NCBI GenBank assembly: GCA_944320725.1
Contig: CALUIM010000008.1
Location: 1 to 64,000, forward strand
Direction of reading: 5' to 3'
Length of the DNA stretch: 64,000 bases
DNA from: an uncultured Coriobacteriaceae bacterium
Lineage (GTDB): Bacteria; Actinomycetota; Coriobacteriia; Coriobacteriales; Coriobacteriaceae
Below, one piece after another: positions 57,986-61,765 of this stretch (within the stretch, counting starts at the first letter, position 1; every line of letters begins with the position of its first letter). A program made the position numbers and the translations under genes. The notes beneath the pieces were generated by a model. It had not been told where the DNA came from. It saw only the letters and a list, made by a program, of their open reading frames with translations, and searched no databases.

Positions 57986-58483
57986 TTACCTTTTCCCTTC
58001 CTTCAAGCCCTTGAAGCTGTAGTCGGGCTTCAAGGTGCACTTCTTAACAGCATCGTAGGCAATCTCGACCTGCTCGCCACCCTCAAGCTCGAGCGTGACC
58101 GAGGCGTCTCCGGCCGAGACGATAGCACCTTTGAACTTGCGGCGACCCTCGGTTGCCGTGGTCGTGAGCTCAATGTTCTCACCGGTAAAGCGCGAAAAGT
58201 CGCACGGGCGGCGCAGCGGGCGCGCCATGCCGGGCGTGGAGACCTCGAGCGTATAGGAACCCGCAACAGGGTCGATCTCCTCAACAAGATCGCTCACCCA
58301 GCCCGTGTGCTCGGCAACCTCGTCGAGCGTGAGCGAGCTCCCATCGGCGCCCTCGATGCGCACGCGCACACACGGAGCCTTGGTAGCACCTGTCATCTCA
58401 ACATCGACGATGTCGATGCCATGCTCGGCAGCATGCTGCTCCAGCACATCGATGATGCGCTGTTCGAGCTCAGTCTTGACCAT
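57986..58483 (-). CDS. rimP: Ribosome maturation factor RimP
   Basis: Needed for 30S assembly. ATG 58483 behind AGGAGG gives 165 residues. The core blocks are IIDVLEQHAAEHGIDIVDVE, DLVEEIDPVAGSYTLEVSTP and GMARPLRRPCDFSRFTGENI. The last two form the conserved RimP signature. It is first in the rimP-nusA-infB operon and stops 1 bp before nusA. Confidence 0.94.
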   Translation of the reverse strand: MVKTELEQRIIDVLEQHAAEHGIDIVDVEMTGATKAPCVRVRIEGADGSSLTLDEVAEHTGWVSDLVEEIDPVAGSYTLEVSTPGMARPLRRPCDFSRFTGENIELTTTATEGRRKFKGAIVSAGDASVTLELEGGEQVEIAYDAVKKCTLKPDYSFKGLKEGKR

Positions 58484-58590: not shown

Positions 58591-58716
58591 ACGCTCAAAA
58601 TGAAGCAATCCAGGCGTGGTTTAGGCCACGCTGCTCCAAAAATTGCACACAAATGGATTCGGTAGACGGACCGACGTCGTGATATCGACCATGACATAGT
58701 CGCGTACTTTATAGCT

Positions 58717-59084
58717 GGTCATCTTCCTAAACCTATGGGCAGGCAACGCGTAGCAACCCGGCTGCGGTGGTCATGACAAGGGACCTATGGGTGGAAAGCG
58801 CGCAGCCAAGGCAGAGCGCTGGTCACGAGACGAGACCTATGGGCACGATGCTCATTGCAAACCTTCATTGATAGTCAAATCGAACGGCCTATGGGCGCGA
58901 ATTCAAGTTTTTCATGGCACCGAAGCGCGGTTAATAAGATTTCTTATCGAGCGACAACCCATACCCCTGAACATTTGACCAAGCGCACGGCAATCCCACG
59001 CACGGCACACCCATAGGTCTCAAGCGATGACCACCACGACCTATCCGCTACGCCTCATCAACCCATACGTCGACCCATTTGACC
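58717..59084. repeat. Seven-copy, 52-bp-phased motif array in two facing arms
   Basis: The motif GGTCA-N10-CCTATGGG (23 bp) occurs four times on the plus strand, starting at 58717, 58769, 58821 and 58873. Three copies on the minus strand occupy 58958-58980, 59010-59032 and 59062-59084. Every step within an arm is exactly 52 bp. Spacers of 29 bp between motifs are not conserved, and a T usually precedes GGTCA. The 62-bp centre (58896-58957) is AT-richer and holds the small palindrome ATAAG-ATT-TCTTAT. No gene is present; this array fills most of the 690-bp rimP-leuS gap. The function is unknown; a protein-binding array is the simplest reading. Confidence 0.9.
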
Positions 59085-59109
59085 AGCGGACGGCGAACGG
59101 TATAGAAAC

Positions 59110-59149
59110 ACGCTGCCTCCCTATGCCATATGGCATAGGGAGGCAGCGT
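59110..59149. terminator. Perfect 40-bp palindrome after leuS
   Basis: ACGCTGCCTCCCTATGCCAT and its exact reverse complement abut without a loop. It lies 25 bp after the leuS stop, with GTTTCTAT next on the minus strand. It probably serves as the leuS terminator. Confidence 0.75.
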
Positions 59150-59173: not shown

Positions 59174-61765
59174 CTACTTCACTACCAAGTTCACAAGACG
59201 CCCGGGAACGCAGATCGCCTTGACGACGGTCTTATCGCCAATCCATTTCGCAGCGGCCTGCTCTGCAGCAGCACGCATCTCGTCTTGTGTCGCCGTGGTA
59301 GAAACATCAACGCGGCAGCGCATCTTGCCAAGCACCTGCACGGCTATCTCAACCGTGTCGCTCTCCGCTTCAGATGCATCAAACGCAGGCCACGGCGCGG
59401 TATAGGCGTTGTCCGTATGGCCCAGCGCCTCGTGCCACAGCTCATCGGCCCAGAACGGGCAGATCGGAGCCATAAGCGAGACGATATCGGTCGCAACCAT
59501 CCAGGAAAGCGCCGCATCACGCGTATCGGGCGTAGCTTCAGTCGCGTTGAGATATGCACTCGCCGCGTTCACAAGCTCCATGATGGCCGAGATGGCCGTG
59601 TTGAACTGCTGGCGATCGAAGTCCTCGGTGCACTTGGTAATCGTGCGATGGCGCTCGCGATAGAGCTTCAACGCCTCGGCATCGAGCGCGCCCTTGTTGA
59701 GCGTCGCCGCAGCATCGCCGGCGTTGGCAAGCTGCCAAACGATACGCCACGCGCGGCGAATGAAGCGGTTCGCACCGGCAACGGCATCCTCGTCCCAGTC
59801 AAAATCTTTCTCGGGCGGCGCAATGAAGAGAATCGCGAGACGCATGGTATCGGCACCGTACGGTTCGATCACCGAGCTCGGCGGCACGACGTTGCCCTTC
59901 GACTTGGACATCGTCTCGCCGTTGGCATCCTTCACCATGCCCTGGCACAGCAAATTGGTGAACGGCTCATCCACATCGAGCATGCCCATGTCGCGGAGCG
60001 CCTTCGTGAAGAAGCGCGAGTAGAGCAAATGGAGAATGGCGTGCTCGATGCCGCCGATGTAGTTGTCGACCGGCATCCAGCGGTCCGCCGCCTCCCTGGA
60101 GAACGGAAGCTCGGCATTGTGCGGGTCGCAATAGCGCAGGTAGTACCAGCTGGAACACGTGAAGGTGTCCATGGTGTCGGTCTCGCGGCGCGCCGGACGG
60201 CCGCACACCGGGCAGGTGGTCTCGTAGAACTCGGCGCACTCGGCAAGCGTCTCGCCCGCGCCGAGATCGAGGTTATCGGGCAGCATGACCGGCAGCTGAT
60301 CCTCGGGCACCGGAACGATACCACAGTGCTCGCAGTGCACAACCGGAATGGGATTGCCCCAATAGCGCTGACGGCTGATGAGCCAGTCGCGCAGGCGGAA
60401 CTGCACGCTGCGACGACCGGTACCAGCAGCCTCCAGATCGGCGACGATCGCCGCCTCGCCCTCGGAATGCTTGCCGCCGCGCATGCCGGTGTACTTGCCC
60501 GACTGGACAAGCGTGCCCTCGGCAACGTGTGCGGAATCCCAATCCACGGTCTCGGCGTGATAGGTGTCGATCGACTCACCGGCCGCCTCGAGCTCGGCAC
60601 GTTCATCGTCCATGAGGATGATGGGCACGATAGGCAGATCGTACTTACGGGCAAACTCGAAGTCGCGCTGGTCGCCGCAGGGTACGGCCATGACGGCGCC
60701 CGTACCATAATCGGAGACGATGTAGTCAGCAACCCACACCGGCACCTTCTGGCCGGAAACGGGATTCACTACATAGCGCCCGGTGAAGGCACCGTGCTTC
60801 TCGAGCGTACCCTGGGCGCGCTCCACGGCGGAAATCTTCTCGGCGCCCTCGATGACCGCGCGCACATCGCGCTCGTACTCGGTACCCGCGACAAGGTCAA
60901 TCAGACCCTTGTATTCAGGGGCGAGCAAGAAGAAGGTGCAGCCGAACAGCGTGTCGGCGCGCGTGGTGAAGACGGTAATCTTGCCCTCGTCGCCAGGGAT
61001 AGGCTCACCCTCGGCGTCACAGAGCGTGAAGTCAACCTCGGCGCCCTCGGAGCGACCGATCCAGTTGGCCTGCATCTGCTTCACGCGCTCGGGCCAGCCG
61101 GGCAGCTTCTCGAGATCGTCGAGCAGCTCCTGGGCGTAATCGGTGATCTTGAAGTACCACTGCTCAAGCTCGCGCTTCTCGGGAACCGAGCCGCAGCGCC
61201 AGCAATGGCCCTCGGTCACCTGCTCGTTGGCAAGGACCGTGTTGCAGCCGGGGCACCAGTTAACCGGGCTCTTTTTGCGATACACGAGCCCGCGCTCCAT
61301 CATCTTAAGGAAGATCCACTGGCCCCAGCGATAGTACTCGGGATCGCAGGTCTTCTGCAGACGATCCATATCGTAGGAAAAGCCCATACGGCGCATCGTG
61401 GCGAGCGCCTGATCCATGTTCTTATACGTCCACTCGCCCGCCTGCGTATGGTGCTTGATGGCGGCGTTCTCGGCGGGCAAACCGAACGCGTCGAACCCGA
61501 TGGGGTGCAGCACGTCGTATCCGCGCATGCGCGCCTGGCGTGCCATGGCGTCGCCGATGGTGTAGTTGCGCGCGTGACCCATGTGCAGGTCGCCCGAGGG
61601 GTACGGGAACATCTCGAGCACGTACTTCTTGGGCTTCGAGGAATCCTCATCCACGGCGAAGAGGTTCTCCTTGTCCCACGCCTCCATCCATTTGGCTTCA
61701 ATGGCCTGGGCATCATAGGCAGGAATTCCCCCGCGGGTTTGCGTTTCGCTGCAGTGGTCGCACAT
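59174..61765 (-). CDS. leuS: Leucyl-tRNA synthetase
   Basis: Charges tRNA-Leu. The 863-residue class I synthetase has the HIGH variant [12 protein letters not shown] (near residue 60) and zinc-type cysteines ([12 protein letters not shown], then CWRCG). The CP1 editing domain contains [15 protein letters not shown] second metal-like site is [20 protein letters not shown]. The KMSKS variant [12 protein letters not shown] lies near residue 620. The anticodon-binding and C-terminal domains are complete. It is monocistronic between an extended -10 promoter and a palindrome. Confidence 0.97.

Follow-up and report, generated by a model that had tools for sequence, protein, structure and literature searches.

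Between leuS and rimP, the 64,000-nucleotide stretch of DNA analysed here (the window) carries one of 18 facing arrays, 85 units in all, found in a 2.07 Mb genome (G000) of which 99.1% was read; the array, first annotated as a single element, is thus not unique. Motif and spacing are under purifying selection in place while the sequence of the spacers is free, and the centre between the two arms changes its length only by whole helical turns. The unit motif has shifted between two genera and the arrays have followed it, so that the specificity of the unit is switchable, by our inference that of one protein. We read the arrays as a selected platform on double-stranded DNA to which a putative protein of switchable specificity would bind. 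Apart from parS, matS, BIMEs and Ter sites, few sequence-defined architectural elements of bacterial chromosomes are known, and the phasing described below is so strict that it can be taken as a structural constraint on a bound complex. A described element of such form was not found in the open-access literature.

Architecture of the arrays

All seven motif copies that the first-pass annotation had placed in two facing arms were recovered (forward strand, 58717, 58769, 58821 and 58873; reverse strand, 58958, 59010 and 59062). Their steps are 52 bp, the centre spans 62 bp (58896–58957), and the variants AGTCA at 58873, GGTATGGG at 58958 and CGTATGGG at 59062 are likewise as described (Table 1). 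When the window was shuffled 200 times, no pair of sites lay 52 bp apart, and sites with up to two mismatches averaged 1.7 per 64 kb. The copies of the proposed 23-bp motif are real, but the unit is longer: its consensus from all genome copies is TGGTCACGA-N3-GRGAC-N-TATGGGT(G), and a weak CGTAGCA box precedes GGTCA by 20 bp. The 29-bp spacers, described as unrelated, do contain this one weak box. An AT-rich, strained centre had also been suggested; AT-richness holds for the window copy (44% GC in the centre versus 57% in the arms) but not for arrays C2_13k, C8_149k and C12_63k, whose centres have 60–62% GC. The perfect 40-bp palindrome adjoining leuS lies outside the array and is probably a terminator hairpin; a version with compensatory changes is present in the sister species G001.

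Table 1. Sites, boxes and neighbouring genes of the array in the leuS–rimP gap, in window positions.
Feature	Position	Strand	Remarks
rimP, downstream neighbour	57986..58483	-	234 bp from array
Left-arm site 1	58716..58739	+	type TGGTCA-N10-CCTATGGG
Third box CGTAGCA	58749..58755	+	at +32 of left-arm site 1 = -20 of left-arm site 2
Left-arm site 2	58768..58791	+	PWM score 44
Left-arm site 3	58820..58843	+	
Left-arm site 4	58872..58895	+	weak (AGTCA); under the profile-scan cut-off
Centre, 62 bp	58896..58957		44% GC
Right-arm site 1	58958..58981	-	GGTATGGG variant
Right-arm site 2	59010..59033	-	
Third box CGTAGCG	59046..59052	-	at +32 of right-arm site 3
Right-arm site 3	59062..59085	-	CGTATGGG variant
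Perfect 40-bp palindrome adjoining leuS	59110..59149		outside array
leuS, upstream neighbour	59174..61765	-	stop codon to array 90 bp

Ten arrays, the symmetric window copy among them, are large (three or four sites in each arm, six or seven in total), and eight are small (one or two in each arm, two or three in total). A profile scan of 99.1% of the genome found no isolated strong sites outside arrays; the few off-lattice weak matches scored 10–11, and listed array sites at least 18.9. In every one of the eight small arrays (e.g., C13:34080-34271 and C9:129696-129948), TATRCA stands exactly at +36 of one arm, and seven have a second TATRCA at -44/-45, outside the other arm, whereas none was found near the sites of the ten large arrays. 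This asymmetry makes the small form polarised, and the small arrays are probably a second class of element with a second protein. Free spacer positions are 29–31% identical, both within and between arrays; the spacers share nothing between loci, which argues against recent copying. A mobile repeat, proposed in case one 368-bp block should recur in many places, is rejected because the spacers differ from locus to locus as random sequences do.

Helical phase and a second specificity

Within the arms, 46 of 49 steps measure 52 bp and 3 measure 51 bp. The innermost facing sites lie at distances of 65, 75, 85, 117, 138, 139, 169, 179, 180, 190 and 201 bp, and a scan of periods between 8 and 14 bp gave 10.45 bp as the best period of the centre lengths (R = 0.97; 0 of 20,000 random sets were as good). 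Since 10.45 bp is the helical repeat of B-DNA, the units of both arms hold one fixed rotational relation. The window array, with a site-to-site gap of 85 across the centre (33 modulo 52), shares the helical phase of the other arrays.

Many arrays of like architecture are present in two species of genus g2 (G009 and G014), where the unit is TGGTCAAWT-N-...-CTGGG(C/T)A; the reversed-pattern control for TGGTCAAWT...CTGGGCA gave no match. Their centre lengths (75–77, 118, 128–129, 139 and 179, some taken by eye from match coordinates) are independently fitted best by 10.45 bp (R = 0.94), in the same phase as those of G000 (0.25 versus 0.20 turn). The idea that protein units line up on one face of the helix is supported by this phase, which neither clade loses on passing from one arm to the other, and by the spacing, kept while spacers drift. 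Where surroundings are comparable, the g2 arrays stand at loci that differ from those of G000. In G018, in the remainder of the 67 genomes from the family and in 398 from the class, TGGTCA-box patterns gave only stray chance matches, and other genomes may hold array versions with an altered TGGTCA box. Array systems can therefore arise, move and vanish inside one bacterial family.

Two g2 sites deserve separate mention. At C26:18623 of G014 (L022), a site taken for an orphan proved to be half of a small array of the G000 type, in a stretch 84–88% identical to G000, and the orphan reading was rejected. One arm at C25:9335-9651 of G009 seemingly includes a step of 63 bp (52 + 11), so that here too the difference is one full turn of the helix.

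Conservation, loss and a possible mobile origin

G000 and most of the relatives compared are largely draft assemblies, and the sister species G001 is a MAG (BRZ_MF__bin44, Coriobacteriaceae). Twelve arrays occupy orthologous places in the two genomes. Across these, identity is 97.8% at the 15 strongest motif positions, 72.7% in spacers and 72.0% in flanks (motif versus spacers, Fisher p = 1e-58), and indels number 0 in 2030 bp of arms, 2 in 1515 of centres and 29 in 2856 bp of flanks. A motif and spacing held fixed locus by locus, with free spacers, are the signature of duplex-DNA binding at a fixed geometry, and they rule out decaying copies of a transposon as the principal explanation.

At least five arrays have been lost in G001: all five that were checked, including the window copy, are missing. 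Their places show deletions with ragged edges, and some loci still have sites in decay (remnants judged by eye). As the window copy is deleted there, this one copy is dispensable. The leuS–rimP gap of other genus members is short or has a different sequence, and most species of the genus lack arrays altogether, so the function cannot be universal. By the yardstick of the first-pass annotation, absence or loss of phase in close relatives would make the array incidental; the window copy is indeed gone there, but at other loci the arrays are conserved and keep their phase.

The inward arms, with several sites each in unequal numbers, resemble Tn7-type ends, and the g2 array positions examined differ from those of G000, which points to gains at new places. 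The arms could accordingly be transposase sites in the paired ends of mobile elements or in non-autonomous copies (Tn7/Mu/IS21-like or MITE), or in relics kept by the host. We consider such an origin unlikely, given the strong selection in place on motif and spacing at 12 loci, the lack of likeness between spacers of different loci, and losses in G001 that are ragged, with decayed sites, instead of clean empty sites with target duplications. Near-identical copies, a feature of MITEs and transposon ends, are likewise missing, as are clean empty sites. Tn7-like ends have several TnsB sites per end, in inverted arms of unequal numbers; these sites are about 20 bp, irregularly spaced, and bound a cargo, whereas the arrays have exact five-turn spacing, no cargo and selection in place. 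Searches of phage, plasmid and viral collections returned only single matches, none beyond chance, and a phage or plasmid origin was rejected. The Mu-type C-terminal domain PF09299 had no match in nine genomes of the genus, and control genomes likewise had none.

Genomic placement and neighbouring genes

By rough in-house gene calls, which underlie these gap and distance figures, 0 of the 18 arrays fall in divergent gaps; such gaps make up 29% of those longer than 250 bp, and the outcome has a chance probability of about 0.2%. Arrays occur only in tandem or convergent gaps, six of them between convergent genes; in tandem gaps, 205–234 bp separate the end of a large array from the next start codon, and 66–163 bp separate the array from the previous gene. 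The neighbours (leuS, rimP, valS, clpX, tyrS, rplX, galE, fba, kup, mnmA, argC and FeFe hydrogenase, among others) have no theme in common across the 18 arrays.

The regular distance to the next start codon in tandem gaps, and the array 212 bp upstream of a gene for NA37, would suit operator arrays that control transcription of a neighbour as upstream silencers or enhancers. This is rather doubtful, since six arrays stand between convergent genes, the neighbours are as varied as valS, tyrS, leuS, rplX, kup, galE, fba and FeFe hydrogenase, and divergent gaps, the usual place for a regulator, are avoided. That the window array specifically regulates the rimP operon, an early suggestion, is not supported: like arrays stand beside 18 unrelated gene pairs, including convergent ones without a promoter on either side, and G001 has lost the window copy.

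The NA37 gene (nucleoid-associated 37-kD protein, L052:4624-5628) lies 212 bp downstream of a large array (C12:149439), and is 99.4% identical between G000 and G001. We treat it as a lead only, as it is 1 of 36 flanking genes and was noticed after the fact. All five genus members checked have a break between rplX and rplE in their S10/spc ribosomal operon (L047:5274-5597, L108); as a sign of recombination at arrays this break was rejected because it also occurs in array-less members.

With contigs ordered on a complete relative, which gives a rough map, the arrays are spread over the chromosome. None was found on the dnaA (ori) contig (150 kb) or on the contig with a dif-like site (65 kb; C4:62830), array-free regions that a general organiser would not predict. 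Three perfect parS sites lie at C5:26733-26830, close to parB and dnaA, on an array-free contig; with ParB and parS present, the notion that arrays replace a missing ParABS system was rejected.

Centromere- or partition-like sites, dispersed over the chromosome and bound by a ParR/ParB-type adaptor, are improbable. In parC of the plasmids pSK41 and R1, clusters of direct repeats flank a core and an oligomeric adaptor extends along the DNA, and the direct-repeat arms around the array centres resemble this geometry. Each plasmid, however, has one parC, adjacent to parMR and built of repeats of some 10–20 bp, whereas the arrays occupy 18 chromosomal sites with housekeeping neighbours and no parMR beside them. 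Specificity in the ParR–parC pair of ParMRC plasmids diversifies between relatives (PMC9426499), a trait that the arrays share. Against a partition role stand the ordinary ParB with its parS sites near dnaA, and arrays that are chromosome-wide yet absent from the ori contig.

An element acting as RNA (structured transcript, terminator or leader), for which perfect hairpins in many centres with compensatory changes between species would speak, is scarcely credible and was rejected: the arrays at 12 loci have no Rfam match at gathering score, the shortest centres lack a hairpin, and the constraint is of the wrong kind, as only duplex DNA gives a reason for steps to stay at 52 bp and lengths to grow by 10.45 bp while the spacer sequence is free. 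The lack of an Rfam match also agrees with the original judgement that the window array is no CRISPR, terminator or promoter. CRISPR loci have identical direct repeats in one orientation, unique spacers of equal length and cas genes, whereas each array has opposed arms and its units are degenerate, and no cas genes were present among the flanking proteins scanned. Perfect hairpins without T-runs were seen in many array centres and 3' regions.

Proposed function and relation to known systems

We give about even credence to the arrays being the binding platform of a lineage-specific protein, whose facing rows fold or bridge DNA at boundary or organising points. The putative protein would bind each TGGTCA...TATGGG(T) unit through two strong boxes and one weak one, covering about 45 bp. 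Adjacent units, five turns (52 bp) apart, would set it on one helix face, and the two facing rows could assemble symmetrically into a complex by which the centre is folded, wrapped or looped, the length of the centre being free to change by whole turns only. From the arrangement, which calls for a protein, or several copies of it, facing its mirror image across the centre, we infer a single cooperative protein that wraps or bridges DNA. About 18 such complexes between transcription units would most likely, at a guess, serve as DNA-bridging or topological boundary points for organisation or insulation.

Position between transcription units, indifference to the genes beside them and dispensability of a single copy lead us to prefer an organising or insulating role over an operator one. 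The boundary or organising role is our guess, and on the same footing chromosome organisation seems the best of the options first listed; for a recombination or replication site, also among them, there is no evidence. A screen of basic proteins gave no clear candidate for the cognate protein. With a confidence just short of even, we propose a new class of bacterial chromosomal boundary or anchor: each chromosome would have about 18–30 facing arrays in helical phase, in a large symmetric and a small polarised form, bound by an architectural protein that is specific to the lineage and evolves fast. The natural specificity switch between two genera offers a direct handle on the protein and on the question of loop anchor or supercoil barrier.

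BIME/REP elements, MITEs and transposon ends, partition centromeres, iterons, CRISPR and Rfam families each depart from the arrays in at least one tested defining feature; a comparison with Lrp/HU-type wrapping arrays turns on a protein that binds phased sites and wraps DNA. Plasmid iterons (RepA/RepE) are direct repeats integral helical turns apart, with a step of about 20–22 bp, in one orientation, at one origin per replicon beside the rep gene; the arrays are dispersed over 18 places, with the dnaA contig free of them, and have whole-turn steps alone in common with iterons. The parS and matS sites are dispersed and serve chromosome-organising proteins (ParB and MatP); they are single short palindromes, not phased arrays, and in G000 parS is separate.

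BIME/REP elements lie in intergenic regions, 3' of genes. Their units are palindromes of 20–40 bp, usually in more than 100 copies. They are dispersed between genes, have oppositely oriented units, are bound by nucleoid proteins, persist for long and differ in sequence between species (PMC2817692, PMC8049555). The arrays are like those of enterobacteria and pseudomonads in their opposed units and intergenic placement, with 0 of 18 in divergent gaps, and unlike them in that the units are not palindromic and lie on a rigid lattice of 52 bp, that a genome has about 18 elements, and that no sequence outside the motif is shared.
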